Of a stretch of 64,000 nucleotides of DNA, positions 6,391 through 64,000 are shown piece by piece (the first letter of the stretch is position 1; each line of letters opens with the position of its first letter). A model generated the notes under the pieces. That model saw nothing but the letters and a program-made list of their open reading frames with translations. It was not told where the DNA came from and searched no databases. Source of the DNA: an uncultured Lachnospiraceae bacterium (GTDB lineage: Bacteria; Bacillota; Clostridia; Lachnospirales; Lachnospiraceae); NCBI GenBank assembly GCA_945919075.1, contig CAMEIX010000011.1:29112-93111 (forward strand). The letters are read 5' to 3'. The translations under genes were made by a program, and so were the position numbers.

Positions 6391-6939
6391 CTATTCCTCC
6401 CCATATAACAGTTCAAAGGATTCATAATGATCCTCGGTATAATAAATCAGCCCATCATCGGAATAGACTATCCGTTTTCCGTTTCGAAAGCCGCCCTCAA
6501 AGTCAATGTCACACTCATAATATTGCCTTCCTGTCTTTTCCGGTAAAAGACCTTCCCGGTTTCCAAATTTATCGCCCCCGATACTCTTTCCGGGAGCCAC
6601 TTCCCACAGATTTCCTTCCTTGTTATCCCAGCCAAGTTCCTGGGCTACTTTTTTGGTAATAAAGTTAGGCGGCAGATGCCCGAATTCATAAATATAGGCG
6701 GCCACCTCTTCCTTAGATGAATACGCTCCATCCTCCTTGGGCAAAGTGCTGTCTTCCTCCGTCATTTCTGCATCGGTTGCTCCTGTGTCAGTCACTTCCG
6801 ACGCATACATACTTTCGACAGGGGCAGTTTCCGGGACAGTGTCCATCTTTTCGACAGCATTCGATTTGTCACTGCATCCACTGCAAAGCAATGTAATCCA
6901 AAGTAATATGCTTAAGAATATTCGGATTCCCTTTTTCAT
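6391..6939 (-). CDS. secreted barnase-type ribonuclease lipoprotein
   Basis: 182 residues: a signal peptide ending in an LCSGC lipobox-like site (Cys22), a Thr/Glu/Asp-rich linker to about residue 74, then a complete barnase fold. The domain aligns directly with barnase: APGKSIGGDKFGNREG, then Glu142 (barnase Glu73), Arg152 (Arg83), Arg156 (Arg87) and His171 (His102). All catalytic residues are present, so guanyl-preferring RNase activity is likely. Lipid anchoring to the outer face of the membrane is an inference, and Cys at the -3 lipobox position is unusual. The start has an AAAGGAG site. Its barstar partner follows at once. Confidence 0.9.
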   Translation of the reverse strand: MKKGIRIFLSILLWITLLCSGCSDKSNAVEKMDTVPETAPVESMYASEVTDTGATDAEMTEEDSTLPKEDGAYSSKEEVAAYIYEFGHLPPNFITKKVAQELGWDNKEGNLWEVAPGKSIGGDKFGNREGLLPEKTGRQYYECDIDFEGGFRNGKRIVYSDDGLIYYTEDHYESFELLYGEE

Positions 6940-15802: not shown

Positions 15803-16801
15803 ATGAAACGAATCAATATGGCAATATTGGGAGCGGGAAATATAGCCGGCCACATGGCGACAGCCATTCAGGGCCTGAAGAAGCAGGTATGTGCTTATGC
15901 AGTAGCTTCCCGAAGTCTGGAAAAAGCGGAAGATTTTGCCCGGAAGCATCATTTTAAGAAGGCTTACGGCTCCTATGAGGAATTGGTTTCCGACCCGGAA
16001 GTGGATCTGATTTACGTAGCTACTCCCCATGCCATGCATTATGAAAATGCAAAACTGTGCGTAGAACACGGCAAAGCGGTGTTAGTGGAGAAGGCTTTTA
16101 CAGCCAATGCGAACCAAGCCGGTCAGTTGATACAGCTTGCGGAGGACAGGAATGTCTTTCTGACAGAGGCTATCTGGACCCGATATATGCCCTCAAGACA
16201 ACTGGTAGCCGATTTACTGGCAGAGGGTACAATCGGGGAGCCTCTCTTACTGGAAGCGGAATTTTCCTTACCCATAAGTCAAAAGCCGCGGATGTATGAT
16301 CCTGCTCTGGCCGGAGGTGCTTTGTTGGATCTGGGTATGTACTGTCTGACCTTTGCATCTATGTTCTTTGGAAATGCTATAGCGGAGGTTCATTCCCATT
16401 GTGAAAAGCTTAATACCGGTGTAGATGCTACTGATGATATTTATTATACCTATCAGGATGGTAGAAAGGCCCATTTGCGTACGTCCATGGTAAGCGGCCC
16501 TGTCAACCGCGGAGAAATCAGAGGAACCTGCGGCCATATCGAGGTAGATACGCTGAATAATTTTTCCGCAATCCGTGTATACGATAAGACAGGGAATTTG
16601 CTTCGGGAGGTGGAAATACCACCTCAGATTAATGGCTACGAATATGAAGTACTTGCCTGTATCCGGGCAATGGAAGCAGGCGTATGTGAATGTCATGAAA
16701 TGCCTCATGGCGAAACCTTGGAACTTATGCGACAGATGGACCGTCTGCGCCGGGATTGGGGCGTAACCTATCCGTTTGAGTTTCCATCCGATACTATATG
16801 A
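15803..16801 (+). CDS. Gfo/Idh/MocA-family oxidoreductase
   Basis: About 332 residues with a Rossmann start MAILGAGNIAGHMATAI and the family motif VEKAFTANANQA, where Lys is the catalytic residue (EKP in most members, here EKA). The C-terminal α/β domain carries GGALLDLGMYCL. These NAD(P)-dependent enzymes oxidise or reduce sugars, inositols or dihydrodiols. The start at 15803 has GGAG 9 nt upstream; an ATG 30 nt earlier has no site. It appears monocistronic and may be controlled by the structured element before it. Confidence 0.9.
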   Translation: MKRINMAILGAGNIAGHMATAIQGLKKQVCAYAVASRSLEKAEDFARKHHFKKAYGSYEELVSDPEVDLIYVATPHAMHYENAKLCVEHGKAVLVEKAFTANANQAGQLIQLAEDRNVFLTEAIWTRYMPSRQLVADLLAEGTIGEPLLLEAEFSLPISQKPRMYDPALAGGALLDLGMYCLTFASMFFGNAIAEVHSHCEKLNTGVDATDDIYYTYQDGRKAHLRTSMVSGPVNRGEIRGTCGHIEVDTLNNFSAIRVYDKTGNLLREVEIPPQINGYEYEVLACIRAMEAGVCECHEMPHGETLELMRQMDRLRRDWGVTYPFEFPSDTI

Positions 16802-16837: not shown

Positions 16838-17145
16838 GGCACACTGCAACTTGGGAGTTATCAAATGCGAGAGCGTTTATATATATTTTATCATTTTTCG
16901 CTGATGCTTATTTTGAGGAAATAGGTACGAAATTTATTTTTCTCTGAATACACTGACATTTTTTACTTTTCTTTCAGCGTTTTTTCTAATTTAAAAATTC
17001 CTACCTACATTTATTGCTAAAAGGTCAGCGTATTTTCTCTTTTTTCTAATAAGCGCTGATTTGGACCTCAAAAAACTCAGCGTTATTAATCAATTTAGAA
17101 AATAACGCTTATTACGGTGCAAACGGTTGCATGCCTATGACCACC
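16838..17145 (+). repeat. dispersed ~310-bp non-coding repeat, copy 1
   Basis: This gene-free stretch (16802-17209) is filled by a sequence that recurs in inverse orientation at 36308-36622 with about 80% identity by eye. Exact shared blocks include 30 nt (16899-16928) and 23 nt (16995-17017). It contains alternating TCAGCG and CGCTGA motifs that can pair with one another, and no open frame. The ends read GGCACACTGCAACTTGG and ATGCCTATGACCACCT. After it, 17148-17182 can form a CGGCT/AGCCG hairpin before the next gene. Confidence 0.8.
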
Positions 17146-17209
17146 TTCGGCTTGTAATATCTTGATTTCCGGTATACAGCCGTGATCCTTTTTAAACAGG
17201 AGGGCAGAT

Positions 17210-17929
17210 ATGGACATTATTTTTCAGAAGACTTCATTAGATGATGAAATATCAAGCATGGTCAATCTTCTTTTATTAGGTAATGAGCATATCAGAGTAA
17301 AAAAATATATTTGTGAATACTTTGATCTGCCAATAGAAATAGTTTCCCAAAGGGATAAAGATGCTTTAGTAGAAATAATAACTCCAGTTATTATGACAGA
17401 GCAGGTAAACAATGCAAATGTGATAGACGAGAAAATTAAGATTATCGCTGCTTTGTGGGATACGAATAGTGAAAAAATAAATAAGATATTTTGTAATGTA
17501 TTTGAGAGTCCGCAGAATACGTCTGTAATAGAAGCGTTTATAAGTGTAAATTGTGTATGCCCATACGATTTTGAGAAAAAACGAATTTATATAAATTATA
17601 GAAAGTCCGGCGAGGAGATGCTGGAGGCTTGTGTTCATGAACTGATTCATTACTACTGGTTTGATAAATGGTATAAATTATTTTCGAAAAAATATGAGCA
17701 ATCTATTGTCTGGTCTTTCTCTGAAATAGCGGTTGACGCATTATTTTTCGAAACGGAACTAAAACAATATTGTGTCAGAGAATATCCGGCGCATAAGCAT
17801 TTTTATGAAATAAATTATAATGGTCAAAATATGATGGAGTATTTCAGAAATTTGTACAGAGATAATTCTATCGTCGAATTCATGCGATTGGGAATAGAAA
17901 TTATACAGAATCTCAATATAGAAATCTAA
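17210..17929 (+). CDS. HExxH protein, putative zinc metallopeptidase of unknown family
   Basis: 239 residues, clearly richer in A and T than the genes around it, which suggests recent acquisition. A central VHELIHYYWF (His143, Glu144, His147) followed by SEIAVD (Glu172) fits a gluzincin-type zinc site. No signal peptide or membrane helix is seen, so it is probably cytoplasmic. The N-terminal ~110 residues are helical and unrecognised. CAGGAGGG lies 7 nt before the ATG. It is 70 nt upstream of the reverse transcriptase on the same strand and may act with it. Confidence 0.62.
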   Translation: MDIIFQKTSLDDEISSMVNLLLLGNEHIRVKKYICEYFDLPIEIVSQRDKDALVEIITPVIMTEQVNNANVIDEKIKIIAALWDTNSEKINKIFCNVFESPQNTSVIEAFISVNCVCPYDFEKKRIYINYRKSGEEMLEACVHELIHYYWFDKWYKLFSKKYEQSIVWSFSEIAVDALFFETELKQYCVREYPAHKHFYEINYNGQNMMEYFRNLYRDNSIVEFMRLGIEIIQNLNIEI

Positions 17930-17999: not shown

Positions 18000-19259
18000 T
18001 TGGAAAAGATGATGGACCTGGCAATGAAGCCGGAATGCTGGAATAACTTCTTTACCTTTAAGAAGGAGCACCGCCTTCTTAGCACAAAAGAATTAAATGA
18101 GATGCAGGCTTTTGTAGATGAAAAACGCTATCTGTCCTGCGTAGAATCCTGGGAAAATCATACTTTTCCTTCCACCCTCCCGTTAAGACGGTCCATCAAC
18201 AAAATGGGAAGCGGCAAAAAACGGGTGGTCTACTCCTATCAGGGGGATGAAGGTCTGTTCCTTAAATTTATTGCCTTTAACCTCTTTCGCTATGATTATC
18301 TTTTTTCTTCCAATTGCTATGCCTTCCGCAGAAGCATCGGCGTAAAAGATGCCATCATGCGTTTACGTCTGACACCTGATTTATCGAAAAAGCATTGTCT
18401 GAAAATTGATATCAGTAATTATTTTAATTCCATTGATGTGAATCTGCTCCTAGGTAAACTTTCTTTTTTGCAAGAAGACGACCTCGCTTTGTATGAACTT
18501 TTTGAAAGAATATTAAAGAATGACAAGGTGGTGGATTCACATTCTAAAGACGATGGTAAGTCCGGTAACCTAAAAATCATACCTGACAAATGCCATGGTG
18601 TCATGGCAGGCACCCCTACCTCTGCTTTCTTTGCAAATCTTTATCTTGCCAGGGTGGACCAATTTTTTGAAAATGCAGGCATTCTATATTTCCGCTATTC
18701 CGATGACATACTGTTTTTCGCGGATACCCGTGAGGAGTTATTCACATACCGGGAAGTCCTGTATGACATGATCTCGAAACTGGGACTATCCGTAAATCCC
18801 GATAAGGTAAAAGTCTCTACCCCCGGAGAGGAGTTTGAATTTTTAGGCTTCTCTTACCGGGATGGCCGTATTGATCTTTCCCCTGCAACCATCCGCAAGA
18901 TGAAGAGCAAAATAAAGAGAAAGGCGGATGCACTGCGCCGCTGGCAGAGAAAAAAAGGGCTTACTCCGGACAAAGCCGCCATCGGTCTCATTAAGGCCAT
19001 GAATCACAAATTCTACGGAAACCCGGAAAACGATACCGACTCAAACGACTTCACCTGGTCCCGCTGGTTTTTTCCGAACCTGAATACCGACAAGGGATTA
19101 AAAGAAATCGACACCTATTTTCAGGAGTATATCCGTTATACGGTCACCGGACGCCATTACAAAGGAAATTACCGCATAAGTTATGAACAATTAAAAGAAT
19201 GGGGTTACAAAAGTCTGGTGCACGAATACTACGAAGCACAGAAAAACGGCAACGTTTAA
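18000..19259 (+). CDS. stand-alone reverse transcriptase, unassigned class
   Basis: 419 residues with ordered RT motifs: basic RVVYSY (~75-80), CLKIDISNYFNSID with catalytic Asp137, GTPTSAFFANLYL (204-216), FRYSDDILFFA with Asp235-Asp236, and FEFLGFSYRDGRIDL (~279-293). A C-terminal ~120-residue domain is basic and then aromatic (W-FFPNLN, EYIRY, YEQLKEWGY). No endonuclease, maturase zinc finger or retron NAxxH is visible. Translation appears to start at a TTG, with AAAGGTGG 7 nt upstream; an ATG occurs at 18009. It resembles group II-like or defence-type RTs, but I cannot place it. Confidence 0.85.
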   Translation: MEKMMDLAMKPECWNNFFTFKKEHRLLSTKELNEMQAFVDEKRYLSCVESWENHTFPSTLPLRRSINKMGSGKKRVVYSYQGDEGLFLKFIAFNLFRYDYLFSSNCYAFRRSIGVKDAIMRLRLTPDLSKKHCLKIDISNYFNSIDVNLLLGKLSFLQEDDLALYELFERILKNDKVVDSHSKDDGKSGNLKIIPDKCHGVMAGTPTSAFFANLYLARVDQFFENAGILYFRYSDDILFFADTREELFTYREVLYDMISKLGLSVNPDKVKVSTPGEEFEFLGFSYRDGRIDLSPATIRKMKSKIKRKADALRRWQRKKGLTPDKAAIGLIKAMNHKFYGNPENDTDSNDFTWSRWFFPNLNTDKGLKEIDTYFQEYIRYTVTGRHYKGNYRISYEQLKEWGYKSLVHEYYEAQKNGNV

Positions 19260-36051: not shown

Positions 36052-36135
36052 TTTATCCCCCCGCACTTCGTAAATTCCCCTAATTTATTACATGGTAACA
36101 TATTTTTAATACATCTGCATTCTTATTTGAAAAAT

Positions 36136-36307: not shown

Positions 36308-36622
36308 AGGTAGTCATAGGCATATAAACCATCTGCTTAACTCCGTAATGAGCGTTATTATTTATGTTTGCAAAAAACACTGAGTTTTTAAAGATTCAAA
36401 TCAGCGCATATAAGAGAAAATAGAAAATAAGCTGACATTTTAACAATAAATGTAGGTAGGAATTTTAAAATTAAAAAAAGCGCTGAAAGTAGAGTGTAAA
36501 ATATCAGCGTATTCGGAGAAAAATAAACTTTGTACCTATTTCCTCAAAATAAGCATCAGCGCAAAATGATAAAATCTCTATAAACGCTCATTCGGTTGAC
36601 AACCACCAAGTTGCAGAGTGCC
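36308..36622 (-). repeat. dispersed ~310-bp non-coding repeat, copy 2 (inverted)
   Basis: On the minus strand this matches 16838-17145, with identical blocks at 36532-36561 (30 nt) and 36444-36466 (23 nt). It holds the same alternating CGCTGA and TCAGCG motifs and no open frame. Together with the iterons it fills the gene-free stretch 36052-36680. Confidence 0.8.
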
Positions 36623-36680: not shown

Positions 36681-37580
36681 TTATCTGCTTCGGATATTCA
36701 GTTCCGGCATCAATGCAGATACTCTTGTATTTTCCGGTACTGACTCTGTAATAAAGGTATTACCTGCTATTACGGAATTCTTACCGATTACGGTATCTCC
36801 GCCAAGCACGGTTGCATTTGCGTATATCACTACATTGTCCTCAATGGTGGGATGACGCTTGATTCCGGATAGCTGCTGCCCTTTCATGGTGGATAACGCT
36901 CCTAATGTTACACCTTGATAAATCTTTACATGATTGCCTATGGTGGTAGTTTCTCCTATTACAATACCGGTACCATGGTCAATAAAGAAATACTCTCCGA
37001 TATCCGCTCCGGGATTGATATCAATTCCGGTCAGGCCATGTGCATACTCCGTCATAATACGGGGAATGTAGGGCACTTTCAGTTTGTATAATTCATGTGC
37101 AACCCGGTATACAAAAATGGCAAATATTCCGGGATATGAAAAGATAATCTCTTCCCTGCTGGATGCAGCCGGATCACCGTCCAGTTCTGCCTCCACATCC
37201 TTAAGTAACAGTTCCTGTATGACAGGCAGTCTGTCAATAAATGCCAGGGCTAATGACTCCACTTCTTTGTCAAATGCTTCTCCACGTACTCTTTTTCCCC
37301 TAAATAAAAGCGAGGTTCTGATTTCCTCAAACAGTCTTTCGTAAATGATGGCAAGTGCACTTCCCGCAAAATTTTCAAGCCTTACATATGCAGAATTTTC
37401 TTCTCCGAAAAATCCCGGAAATACTACTTTTCTGATCTCTAAGAGGGTATCGATGATTTCAGACTTTTTCGGTAACCTTTCACCGATTCCGACTTCAAAG
37501 ATTTCCTGTTTTTTATAATTGTCATTCAGTCTTTCCGATGCTTTATCAATTCGATTTTTTACTTCGTTATTCTTACTCAT
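36681..37580 (-). CDS. cysE: serine O-acetyltransferase (EpsC/CysE type)
   Basis: About 299 residues. The C-terminal left-handed β-helix with hexapeptide repeats includes [31 protein letters not shown] and [19 protein letters not shown]. It transfers acetyl from acetyl-CoA to serine, the first step of cysteine synthesis. The N-terminal helical region is longer than in E. coli CysE, as in the EpsC branch. The start at 37580 has AAAGGATGG 8 nt upstream. No cysK is adjacent. Confidence 0.92.
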
Positions 37581-46447: not shown

Positions 46448-46467
46448 AAAGGAGATAAAATCACATC

Positions 46468-46513
46468 AGGGACGTTCCTTTCGTCCCAAAAACAAGACAA
46501 AAGGAACGTCCCT
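46468..46513. repeat. GGGACGTTCC hairpin repeat, copy A
   Basis: An 18-bp inverted repeat (46468-46485 with 46496-46513, core GGGACGTTCC and TTTTGTC) overlaps the stop of the 79-residue ORF. A near-identical copy stands at 46846-46891. Such REP-like hairpins may serve as terminators. Confidence 0.8.
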
Positions 46514-46751
46514 AACGTCCAAACTCGTGATTATATAAATACAATATGGAACCGATAAGACCTGCAAACACCCCGGAATATCCCATAAAGCACAACAACC
46601 ATTCTGTTCCCGGCAGTAATAACCTTCCTATCAGAAGCCACAATGCTGCCCCCAACAGATTTGCCACAATAACGGATATCACAATAAATACGGTATTCTT
46701 GTTTTTCTCGTTAAGCGCAGATTTTTCCAGAAATAACCATAATTTCTTCAT
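46512..46751 (-). CDS. small membrane protein of unknown function
   Basis: 79 residues starting MKKLWLFLEKSALNEKN, then two hydrophobic helices (VFIVISVIVANLLGAALWLLIG and WLLCFMGYSGVFAGLIGSILYLY). GGAGGTGGG lies 5 nt before this ATG, so the longer frame is not used. It stands alone between two hairpin repeats, and four half-sites of Pho-box type lie just upstream. It may take part in the phosphate response; the function is not recognised. Confidence 0.7.
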   Translation of the reverse strand: MKKLWLFLEKSALNEKNKNTVFIVISVIVANLLGAALWLLIGRLLLPGTEWLLCFMGYSGVFAGLIGSILYLYNHEFGR

Positions 46752-46824: not shown

Positions 46825-46845
46825 AATACATTTCCACAAGACATT

Positions 46846-46891
46846 AGGGACGTTCCTCTTGTCTAAAAAACAAGACAAAAGGAACGTCCCT
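46846..46891. repeat. GGGACGTTCC hairpin repeat, copy B
   Basis: The same 18-bp inverted repeat (46846-46863 with 46874-46891), loop about 10 nt, starts 4 nt after the stop of the membrane protein gene at 46896 and may terminate it. Confidence 0.8.
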
Positions 46892-46895
46892 AACG

Positions 46896-47870
46896 TCATT
46901 TTTTCCGATTCAGCAGCATACCTGCCAGGGCGGCTACACCTCCCGCCGCAGCCACAATTAACAAATCGATGGGGGCAAGGACAATTCCGGGTATGCTGTC
47001 AAAAAGAAATCCGATCCCAAAGCTATACAAATGTCCGTGCAAAAGAATCATTTCACCGACATACATAAGGCCGGTCATTGTCAGAGCAACCATCACTGGA
47101 ATTCCTATGGAAATAAATCTACGTCTGCCGAGAAGGAAAGAAGCTGCATAAATCCCCGCAGTCAGACCAAAAAGAAGAAAGAACACTGCCATCAGTACAG
47201 CGGACAGGGGTGACACACGCTGGCTTCCGTCTCTCCAAAAAGCGGTAAAACAGGCAAGAATACAAAGTCCGAGGAAAACGAACGAACAAGCCGACTGCAG
47301 AACCAATGATTTCAGGCGTTTTTTCTCCCCTGTCTCTATCAATCGGGCAAAACCGTACAGGCTGTTCAGTATCGAGAGAATCAAAACTACGGAAATAAGA
47401 TAAAAATGTAGTTTAAAAGCGGGATTGTAATTCCCCATCAAAATGTCGACGGCTGTCTGTTTTTTATAAGTGGTGGTAACCGTTTCACTCCATCCTCCCG
47501 GCGGCACAGCACACATAAACATCTGCCAATCTTCCAGCCTTACTACCGTTTCCGGTGTTGTAACCACCACTCTTTTTTCAAACAGCATTTCCATAGCGAA
47601 AAATGTGCCGACAGATACAGCCGAACCACCGACAAGGGCAAAACGTCTGAATATTTTCATACACAAAGGCAGTATTAACACACCAAGCAGGATTGCAACA
47701 GAAATAGGTGTATACGGAATAATATACTTCGGATAATTCTCTTTTAAAACCGTTCCGTCCGAAAGCATGTCTCCAATCACCCGTATCCCCATATAAAGCG
47801 GATAAAAGGAAGCAACCAAACCCCCAAGACAGGCTAACAGGTAAAATTTTCGTAACCGTTTCGTTTTCAT
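46896..47870 (-). CDS. multi-helix membrane protein of unknown function
   Basis: About 324 residues with eight or so hydrophobic segments and an external region near residues 105-150 (FEKRVVVTTPETVVRLEDWQMFMCAVPPGGWSETV). No family is recognised. It is the third gene of a BlaI-M56 operon, overlapping neither but placed 14 nt after the M56 stop, so it is probably the effector controlled by that pair. The start at 47870 has AAAGGAG 7 nt upstream; an ATG two codons earlier is too close to it. Confidence 0.72.
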   Translation of the reverse strand: MKTKRLRKFYLLACLGGLVASFYPLYMGIRVIGDMLSDGTVLKENYPKYIIPYTPISVAILLGVLILPLCMKIFRRFALVGGSAVSVGTFFAMEMLFEKRVVVTTPETVVRLEDWQMFMCAVPPGGWSETVTTTYKKQTAVDILMGNYNPAFKLHFYLISVVLILSILNSLYGFARLIETGEKKRLKSLVLQSACSFVFLGLCILACFTAFWRDGSQRVSPLSAVLMAVFFLLFGLTAGIYAASFLLGRRRFISIGIPVMVALTMTGLMYVGEMILLHGHLYSFGIGFLFDSIPGIVLAPIDLLIVAAAGGVAALAGMLLNRKK

Positions 47871-62670: not shown

Positions 62671-64000
62671 ATGAAACTATTATCCTTACTAAAAAACAAA
62701 ATATTCGTCGTATGTGCATCCTGCACCGTTGTGGTAGCCACTGCAGCAGTTGTTGCCGGCGTGCTCAAAAAACCGGATTCCTACCGTCTTATAAAGGTTT
62801 TTGAAATGGAAGGAAAATCTACTGTAGACAGGAAATCAGCGGGTATTCTGGATGCCTATGTAAATATGAATTTAGAGAATGAAGATATCGTATCTGTGCT
62901 GGATAACAGTACTCTTAGACTGAATCTGGATAATGATAAATATATACAGCTGGATGCCGGCTCCGTTTTGGAACTGAATGCCACCGGAACTGCTTCCAAT
63001 AGCAAGACTACCCTCAATCTGAAACAGGGAACCATTTTAAATGAAATTACATCTCCCCTGTCAGACTCTTCTTCCTATTCGATAAACACTCCGAAGTCCA
63101 CTATGGCAGTACGAGGCACCAGTTTCATTGTATCGGTAGAAAAGCAGGCAGATAATAGTTACATTACCCGTCTTTATACCCTGCATGGTACGGTAGAGGT
63201 ACAGCTTTTAGATAAAAACGGAAATCCAAAAGGAGCTCCTGTTTTAGTAACAGAAGATCAGTCCGTTATCATCAAGACAGACCCGACCACAACAGGTTCC
63301 GTTGACCCTTCTGTGAACGGCTATTCCTACTTTGTTTTTTATGATAAATCCACCGGAGAATATAACACCGTGCCGCAAGGTACCAGTCCGGTTACCGGCT
63401 TTACCTATACCGATATTCCGGTTTCCATGCTGAATCAACTTTTGGATACCAATAACAATAGGGAAATCGTCTTAAATGACGTGGTCCTTGCTAAAATCAT
63501 GGATGCCCTGGACGGAGAAGAAGAACCGGTTGAAACCAGTTCTCCCGAACCCACAGAGCCTGCAACCGTTTCTCCTGAAGTTCAGACACCGGATCCCAGT
63601 GAGACGCCATCGATCATTCCGACAATTGCACCGACATCCACGCCCAAACCCACTGTAGCACCTACTGAAACACCTACGGTTTCGCCTACAGAGACACCTA
63701 CCGAAACACCTACTGCTACACCTACACCTTCAACGACACCTAACCCTACGAAGACACCTACGCCCTCGACTCCTCCTAAAGAGTCTCCGGCTCCTACAGA
63801 GACTCCTACTACGGGAACTCCGGCTACTACAGTGACTCCTGCTACTACAGAGACCCCTGCTACTACGGAAACTCCTGCTACCACGGAAACTCCGGCTACT
63901 ACAGTGACCCCTGCTACTACGGAGACTCCGGCTACTACAGTGACTCCTGCTACTACGGAGACTCCGGCTACTACAGTGACTCCTGCTACTACGGAGACTC
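62671..64000 (+). CDS. FecR-domain surface protein with Thr/Pro repeats (3' end outside window)
   Basis: At least 443 residues, running off the window. A short basic start and helix (FVVCASCTVVVATAAVVAGVL) anchor it, then a FecR-like β-domain (LDAGSVLELNATG, SINTPKSTMAVRGTSFIVSV, YTLHGTVEVQLL) lies at ~45-190. From about residue 290 the chain becomes Thr/Pro/Glu-rich (ETPT, TPTP), ending in an exact repeat of VTPATTETPATT. GGAGG is 7 nt before the ATG. It probably spans the wall as a stalk and may work with the CHASE2 cyclase. Confidence 0.87.
   Translation, partial: MKLLSLLKNKIFVVCASCTVVVATAAVVAGVLKKPDSYRLIKVFEMEGKSTVDRKSAGILDAYVNMNLENEDIVSVLDNSTLRLNLDNDKYIQLDAGSVLELNATGTASNSKTTLNLKQGTILNEITSPLSDSSSYSINTPKSTMAVRGTSFIVSVEKQADNSYITRLYTLHGTVEVQLLDKNGNPKGAPVLVTEDQSVIIKTDPTTTGSVDPSVNGYSYFVFYDKSTGEYNTVPQGTSPVTGFTYTDIPVSMLNQLLDTNNNREIVLNDVVLAKIMDALDGEEEPVETSSPEPTEPATVSPEVQTPDPSETPSIIPTIAPTSTPKPTVAPTETPTVSPTETPTETPTATPTPSTTPNPTKTPTPSTPPKESPAPTETPTTGTPATTVTPATTETPATTETPATTETPATTVTPATTETPATTVTPATTETPATTVTPATTET
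63904..64000 (+). repeat. 36-bp tandem repeat coding the Thr/Pro stalk
   Basis: Near-identical 36-nt units begin at 63904, 63940 and 63976 (the last is cut by the window edge) and encode VTPATTETPATT. Related 18-nt units precede them from about 63826. Such DNA often gains and loses units by slippage. Confidence 0.9.

Follow-up and report, generated by a model that had tools for sequence, protein, structure and literature searches.

Most copies of a dispersed non-coding repeat in a Lachnospiraceae genome have a near-palindromic end like those bordering gene-carrying units in related species

The window analysed here, a stretch of 64,000 nucleotides on contig CAMEIX010000011.1 of an uncultured Lachnospiraceae bacterium (assembly GCA_945919075.1), contains two copies of a non-coding repeat termed repeat A. 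Copy 1 (16838..17145, + strand) is located between the gene for a Gfo/Idh oxidoreductase, which ends at 16801, and the gene for a 239-aa protein, which starts at 17210. Copy 2 (36308..36622, − strand) is flanked by a hexapeptide-transferase gene (− strand, ending at 36681; serine acetyltransferase by eye) and a RelA/SpoT-like gene (− strand, starting at 36066). A first-pass annotation of this DNA had described two inverted copies of about 80 % identity with identical inner blocks and no ORF, and this description is upheld: identity amounts to 81.6 % over 315 columns (E 1e-82 within the window), blocks of 30 nt (16899..16928, + strand, with CGCTGA at its start) and 23 nt (16994..17016, + strand, including CCTACCTAC) are the same in both copies, and the longest ATG frame in either copy spans 22 aa. 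The motifs CGCTGA and TCAGCG, likewise reported there, occur in mixed orientation in both copies; the array of copy 1 (16899..17082, + strand) consists of CGCTGA (16899), a changed CACTGA (16951), TCAGCG (16974 and 17025), CGCTGA (17054) and TCAGCG (17077).

The 239-aa gene (17210-17929, + strand), whose product has no Pfam match, is followed by a gene for a UG26-class reverse transcriptase (18000-19259, + strand; PADLOC RT_UG26, E 4.5e-157) that starts 855 bp downstream of copy 1. An RT-5 RNA (RF03026; 15635-15758, + strand, 66.8 bits) is found directly before the Gfo/Idh gene, 2.2 kb upstream of the reverse transcriptase gene, and is possibly a partner RNA that became parted from the enzyme by other genes and repeat A. 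The position of copy 1 between enzyme and RNA is what speaks for one of three earlier guesses, namely that repeat A itself is the template or partner RNA of the adjoining reverse transcriptase; this is very improbable, however, since searching the genome yielded no RVT_1 gene besides the UG26 gene, which does not account for 21 dispersed copies of A, the others of which are located elsewhere. Nor does repeat A match any Rfam family above gathering score.

In total, 21 matches to repeat A were detected in its own genome (3.0 Mb, 55 contigs) at E ≤ 2.0e-8, distributed over 11 contigs and both strands; two more copies are cut by contig ends, and three further matches at E 0.07-0.8 were treated as chance. 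One of the 21 matches is diverged (L021, 68 %). This A-like locus (G000:C10:40800-40968; 68-72 % identity) carries six CGCTGA/TCAGCG motifs and lies beside three tRNA genes. The absence of further copies, named beforehand as the finding that would argue for a simple old duplication, is hence contradicted by the genome-wide count. A functionless old duplication would fit the pairwise identities of 73 to 98 % (median 84 %) among the 18 copies that were aligned (L015, L020 and L021 being excluded as truncated or divergent) and the truncation of several copies, but it has next to no probability in view of 21 copies in unrelated places, conserved motifs and common modular ends. Many copies abut other repeat modules of the same genome in varying order and orientation. 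In the flanks of L004, L007 and L018, hairpin-rich modules named C, D and F are combined with A in differing order.

Within the genomes and records searched, the core of repeat A is known from the source species alone. A first search of 60 other genomes returned short fragments in four of them, at E 7e-4 or worse, and a pattern of the core with two mismatches allowed occurs at 20 places in the own genome and at none in 60 other genomes of the same genus. With a longer query, seven other genomes were matched among 138 of the genus, own genome included and the best five candidates per genome scored; all seven matches fall within query bases 295-334 of 338, which is the right end of A. The phage and plasmid records searched held no repeat A. 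Four stretches bearing the core pattern, two in a collection of species genomes and two in viral contigs, were rejected after alignment to A, which yielded a 17-bp match for one and none for three. The relatives compared within the genus look distant from the source: the gene beside copy 2 has matches of 50-55 % identity in four of 24 same-genus genomes, and the relatives obtained with this gene in a search for empty sites, 48-57 % identical, are too distant for an alignment of intergenic DNA.

The body of repeat A is conserved above all in its motifs. The six consensus motifs, ordered + + − − + − in the orientation of the first-pass annotation, are conserved to 98.3 % over 36 columns versus 88.4 % over the 231 other columns (p = 2.9e-6). 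As RNA, copy 1 folds with a z-score of −2.3 (2 of 100 shuffles fold equally well) and a typical copy with −3.1 on the + and −2.9 on the − strand, i.e., about equally on both. Covariance folding of the aligned bodies, proposed as a check, found both sides changed in 2 of 35 predicted pairs and thus no compensatory support; as the motif sequence itself is conserved, the body yields no compensatory evidence.

The ends of units, the inter-unit boundaries and the heads of a structured end motif (S, see below) are versions of one near-palindrome of ~18 bp, resembling GACAAAT-NNNN-ATTTGTC and referred to as the joint. It was first spotted by eye and a matrix was built afterwards; a second matrix comprises 18 sites from other species, S heads included, with none taken from the own genome or from genome G092. 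At a threshold of 6.1 for ends of A, corresponding to the 99.9 % quantile of the background, copy 1 possesses a left joint (16845..16862, TGCAACTTGGGAGTTATC, score 12.3) located 44 bp behind the Gfo/Idh gene and a weak right joint (17139..17156, GACCACCTTCGGCTTGTA, score 6.7) located 54 bp before the next gene. The left joint of copy 2 (36598..36615, GACAACCACCAAGTTGCA on the + strand) scores 8.9-9.0, and the best joint score at its right end is 3.5, under threshold. The earlier remark that clear terminal inverted repeats are missing needs correction, as the left ends of both window copies match the near-palindrome (12.3 and 9.0); near-palindromic ends and terminal inverted repeats cannot be told apart by sequence alone. 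Among the 21 copies, joints above threshold are present at the expected left position (16) in 11, with ~1 expected by chance and two extra left-side matches at another position not counted, and near the right end in another count of 11, with ~1.4 expected. Six copies have a joint at both ends, 16 at one end or more, and five at neither. The 18 sites used for training included S heads, so the right-end matches of S-bearing copies are in part a reflection of homology, and the left ends constitute the cleaner test.

The joint is short, AT-rich and often degenerate. The whole window is not enriched in it, with four matches ≥ 11 versus 8.2 in shuffles, the sole intergenic one of the four being the left joint of copy 1. 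With the first matrix, five stretches gave 28, 24, 22, 12 and 25 matches ≥ 7 versus 22.2, 27.4, 16.2, 10.6 and 8.2 in mononucleotide shuffles, so that the last of these, from G092, is the only one clearly enriched. At a place in the own genome that follows a carB-like gene (by eye), a single joint serves both A and the module adjoining it. The ends of A exist in several versions: 11 of the 21 copies match S at the right end, and copy 1, copy 2 and L011 have a different right end in common (by eye).

The common right end of A is also present in other species, there without A. This end motif S, which is read in the opposite direction, comprises a conserved head, a small hairpin, the conserved stretch GAGGGATG and a second hairpin whose sides change together. 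In repeat A it occurs in an altered form, in the 11 copies mentioned and in the two copies cut by contig ends; neither the window nor L011 contains a match. Within A it scores 31-54 bits versus up to 93 bits elsewhere, and by eye the second hairpin is truncated within its 3' half. A second repeat family of the own genome, repeat B (~370 bp; L009 rel. 480-860, L056-L060, L064), has a right end that resembles the one of A, with weak S matches of 27 and 23 bits. One copy of repeat B is located inside a small gene (L106), and several B matches lie near contig ends.

In 12 S sequences, 23 cells changed on both sides of a pair, a number reached by none of 500 shuffles. Of the same 500 shuffles, 268 reached the number of pairs changed on both sides and 396 the number of further pair types. 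Model-fitted alignments, which lean towards the modelled structure, gave 109 and 86 such cells (0 of 500 shuffles each); for the 86-cell alignment, 59 of 500 shuffles reached the number of pairs changed on both sides and 376 the number of further pair types. Since the changes mostly separate two main hairpin types, they may represent few events. The compensatory changes asked after by the first-pass annotation are thus found for the second hairpin of S and not for the body of A. No Rfam match above gathering score was obtained for S.

A search model (R1) built from the 12 sequences detected S in at least 26 of 138 genomes of the genus (own included; best 36 candidates per genome) and in at least 33 of 392 genomes of the order (own included; best 12 candidates per genome), 32 of which belong to the family of the window; 22 of 173 genera are represented. 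S furthermore occurs on two megaplasmids of Lachnospira eligens, where it is immediately followed by a flavodoxin gene. Together with the few names returned by a protein search with the reverse transcriptase of the window, this would point to Lachnospiraceae as the likely family of the window. The exact S pattern matched nothing in viral contigs, but a looser one detected part of S in a single phage record. That record, MT837531.1 from human faeces, is 6.7 kb long and unannotated, and its positions 6581-6648, near its end, cover 76 % of the S length at 89.9 % identity.

Placement of S was assessed with naive frames of at least 60 aa, counting stop codons within −60 to +45 of the S head, an interval set after examples had been seen. 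Within the genus, a same-strand stop codon is near for 25 of 49 S; the opposite strand gives 10 of 49, and among random positions the count is 351 of 1960 (p = 1.5e-7). These 49 were drawn from 62 matches outside the own genome, the 13 omitted being mostly weak and three of them tandem or near partners of counted ones. In other genera the values are 18 of 31, 8 of 31 and 228 of 1240, respectively, for 31 of 44 matches, nine of them from one genome. The genes upstream of S comprise housekeeping-like as well as accessory ones (by eye). The excess of S sense to the upstream gene and beside its stop codon, together with its covariation, the higher conservation of the motif columns of A and the fold z-score of about −3 of a typical copy, would suit a structured RNA of 3' untranslated regions or operon joints, the copies of which would be kept because their transcribed hairpins alter mRNA stability, termination or translation and would spread by recombination only. 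Such an RNA is nevertheless improbable as an explanation of A: its body is almost devoid of compensatory change, folding is about equally strong on either strand, copy 1, copy 2 and L011 show no S and their neighbouring genes run opposite to the direction usual beside S-bearing copies, and gene units with sharp borders are found in unrelated flanks (see below). The guess of a structured RNA family made by the first-pass annotation is thus partly right: the end motif covaries, but the body does not, and no S was found in the window.

The bodies headed by S differ. In 15 of 26 bodies tested (three A-type, 12 from five other genomes, seven of these from G081), a hexamer occurs in both orientations beyond all 100 shuffles; the hexamers are CGCTGA in A, TGGGCA in G081 and G093, and AGTCGG or a shifted CCCGAC in G081, G080 and G099. 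A further one, TACAGG in G067, is located ~290 bp from S and is perhaps unrelated. The remaining 11 of the 26 bodies fail this 100-shuffle alternation test, including repeat B, which alternates by eye, and L209, the AT-rich motif of which was excluded by the filter. That bodies swap their whole motif set together would favour self-complementarity over a single protein-binding word. In G081, an element of ~510 bp carries S at both ends in inverted orientation.

Among the 40 pairs of S loci with the longest matches, two gene-carrying units were examined, and both have sharp borders within the joint. One unit of 763 bp, which encodes a NUDIX hydrolase (Pfam), is 99.6 % identical in G497 and G457, two genomes of one genus, and has unrelated flanks. 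The other, of 669 bp, encodes a 175-aa protein without Pfam match (membrane protein by eye) and is 97.6 % identical in G005, from the genus of the window, and G497, from another genus, again with unrelated flanks. Both units start at AATCGGRATTG and end inside similar sequence, and no target-site duplication or flanking direct repeat is visible at their four borders (by eye). Another pair of S loci matches over 563 bp at 93 % between G067 and G116, and unit ends of this kind are also located behind a GNAT gene in G487 and behind two genes in G092. Within 1500 bases of S, eight such unit ends are located downstream and two upstream.

Joint-like matches also lie between genes in some arrays. In an array of seven small genes in G092 (L278, G092:C26), which was picked after its joint matches had been seen, a joint ≥ 10 is present at all eight gene boundaries according to the matrix free of G092 sites. 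Boundaries make up 13.9 % of this sequence and hold 9 of its 11 matches, and shuffled sequence has 2.15 matches on average; at ≥ 12, the joint is kept at four of eight boundaries. An array of 30 genes in G101 has two intergenic matches ≥ 12, and the C6 array of the own genome has none; joints either erode or fail to explain all arrays. In G101, locus L152 (G101:C57:20000-38000) comprises ~30 small, tightly spaced frames on one strand, which by eye encode GNAT, kinases, a methyltransferase and others, and it contains S twice. A GNAT gene of G005 lies between two joint-like sites, one of which is not among the second-matrix matches ≥ 12, and a ribosome-binding sequence is located directly behind one such site (by eye).

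A lead, not a link, to a candidate enzyme of the joint is a tyrosine recombinase gene (Phage_integrase, E 6e-28) located ~125 bp from the 175-aa-protein unit in G005, with a similar recombinase fragment 3.7 kb further on. The contig of G497 that carries the same unit encodes a weak relative (E 3.7e-7), the sole one outside G005 among the frames of the loci compared.

Judged from these sequence comparisons, repeat A is best read as a non-coding passenger cassette that is probably moved at the joint by a putative enzyme acting in trans; a probability of roughly 0.5 is assigned to this reading, which draws on the presence, in 16 of the 21 copies, of a joint of the kind bordering gene units in related species. 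Among the three guesses of the first-pass annotation, the non-autonomous mobile element accordingly fares best, considering the 21 copies dispersed on both strands, ends common to other repeat families and two gene units in unrelated flanks. The exchange of units would take place inside the joint, in the manner of site-specific recombination and not of cut-and-paste at terminal repeats, which is suggested by head-to-tail units with one common joint and by the lack of visible target-site duplications at the four borders. A putative recombinase or transposase would act on the joint in trans, and insertion behind a stop codon could allow promoterless cargo to be transcribed together with the upstream gene. 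The hairpin-forming body of A would likely be cargo kept for its ability to pair, as several other S-headed bodies carry different, equally self-complementary motif arrays.

An ordinary MITE or mobile insertion cassette, in which the joints would be terminal inverted repeats of an insertion sequence served by a DDE transposase in trans, is a rather unlikely alternative to the passenger cassette moved at the joint. Repeat A agrees with it in size, in its AT-rich body and inverted ends, and in the dispersal and nesting of its copies, the G081 element with inverted S at both ends fits it as well, and MITE-like repeats are described in pneumococcus (PMC3049150) and such cassettes in Bacillus cereus (PMC6542083). 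The borders of the two gene units without visible target-site duplication (by eye) and the single joint that neighbouring units can share speak against it, and sequence searches with both ends of A returned repeats and solo ends only, a weak test in which the frames of the loci were glanced over for transposases.

Extending the cassette reading of A to the family, it is tentatively proposed, at somewhat less than even odds, that Lachnospiraceae may harbour an undescribed integron-like cassette system. Promoterless genes, S leaders and hairpin arrays would be interchangeable at the 18-bp joint, preferentially behind stop codons, by means of a tyrosine recombinase in trans, and A would be a non-coding cassette of this system.

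Comparison with known systems reveals partial likenesses. BOX elements of streptococci are non-coding, dispersed and predicted to fold, consist of a conserved end and exchangeable middle modules, have alternative end modules in S. suis, and form clusters and insert into one another (PMC3049150). Repeat A is likewise modular with conserved ends and an exchangeable middle, a likeness of design. Unlike BOX, similar ends here also border protein-coding units, the covarying end motif is common to several genera, the bodies include several arrays of complementary hexamers that are specific to their family, and neither A nor S has a match in Rfam.

Mobile insertion cassettes (MICs) carry passenger genes between the ends of an insertion sequence. 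MICs and MITEs rely on an active transposase (PMC6542083). Like MIC231-type cassettes and MITEs, the units described here are without a transposase of their own and would need one elsewhere; a parent insertion sequence was not found in non-exhaustive searches with the ends of A. Unlike in these elements, near-palindromic joints can be common to neighbours, and sense placement beside stop codons is in excess.

Integron attC sites, with RYYYAAC/GTTRRRY boxes (R and L) and a hairpin formed by the folded bottom strand, are located 3' of the gene. The present units resemble integron cassettes in their small accessory genes (NUDIX, GNAT, AAA-type kinase, flavodoxin), their single orientation in arrays and a boundary element similar to a recombination site. 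In contrast to integron cassettes, the ~18-bp joint does not have attC architecture, S is located 5' of the cargo, and S is also found after housekeeping-like genes (by eye).

REP and BIME elements are palindromic intergenic repeats in alternating orientation with a GTAG-type tag. A shares with them the palindromic, intergenic and alternating character; it is, in contrast, much longer, no GTAG-type tag was noticed, and Y1 transposase does not clearly track S. Mobilisation by RAYT/Y1 is not supported: Y1 transposase is present in 12 of 26 S-bearing versus 33 of 112 S-free genomes (p = 0.11), G081 has none despite 15 S matches, G067 has a fragment, and G000 has a single incomplete copy that contains a stop.

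Non-coding repeats that are mobile and have modular ends (PMC3049150) are already known, as are cassettes without transposase (PMC6542083). The combination of similar ends around single genes, around structured leaders and around hairpin arrays in several genera did not appear in the titles and abstract beginnings that searches of open-licence papers returned, nor was S, the joint or a cassette of this kind from Lachnospiraceae described there. Long same-strand arrays of small accessory genes occur in these genomes, and their assembly could not be explained here by known elements. If the proposed system holds true, joint-bounded units without an enzyme of their own would be exchanged singly between genera, a route beside integrons, conjugative elements and phages; bacteria would thereby gain a way to shuffle single genes, and the joint is a defined sequence on which this could be tested. 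Non-coding members, whose self-complementary motif arrays are family-specific, would be a good place to ask why bacteria keep hairpin arrays as mobile cargo.

Two other repeats of the window are located outside any copy of A: a 57-bp repeat of 91 % identity (46463-46519 and 46841-46897) and a repeat of 70 % identity at the window end (63685-64000).
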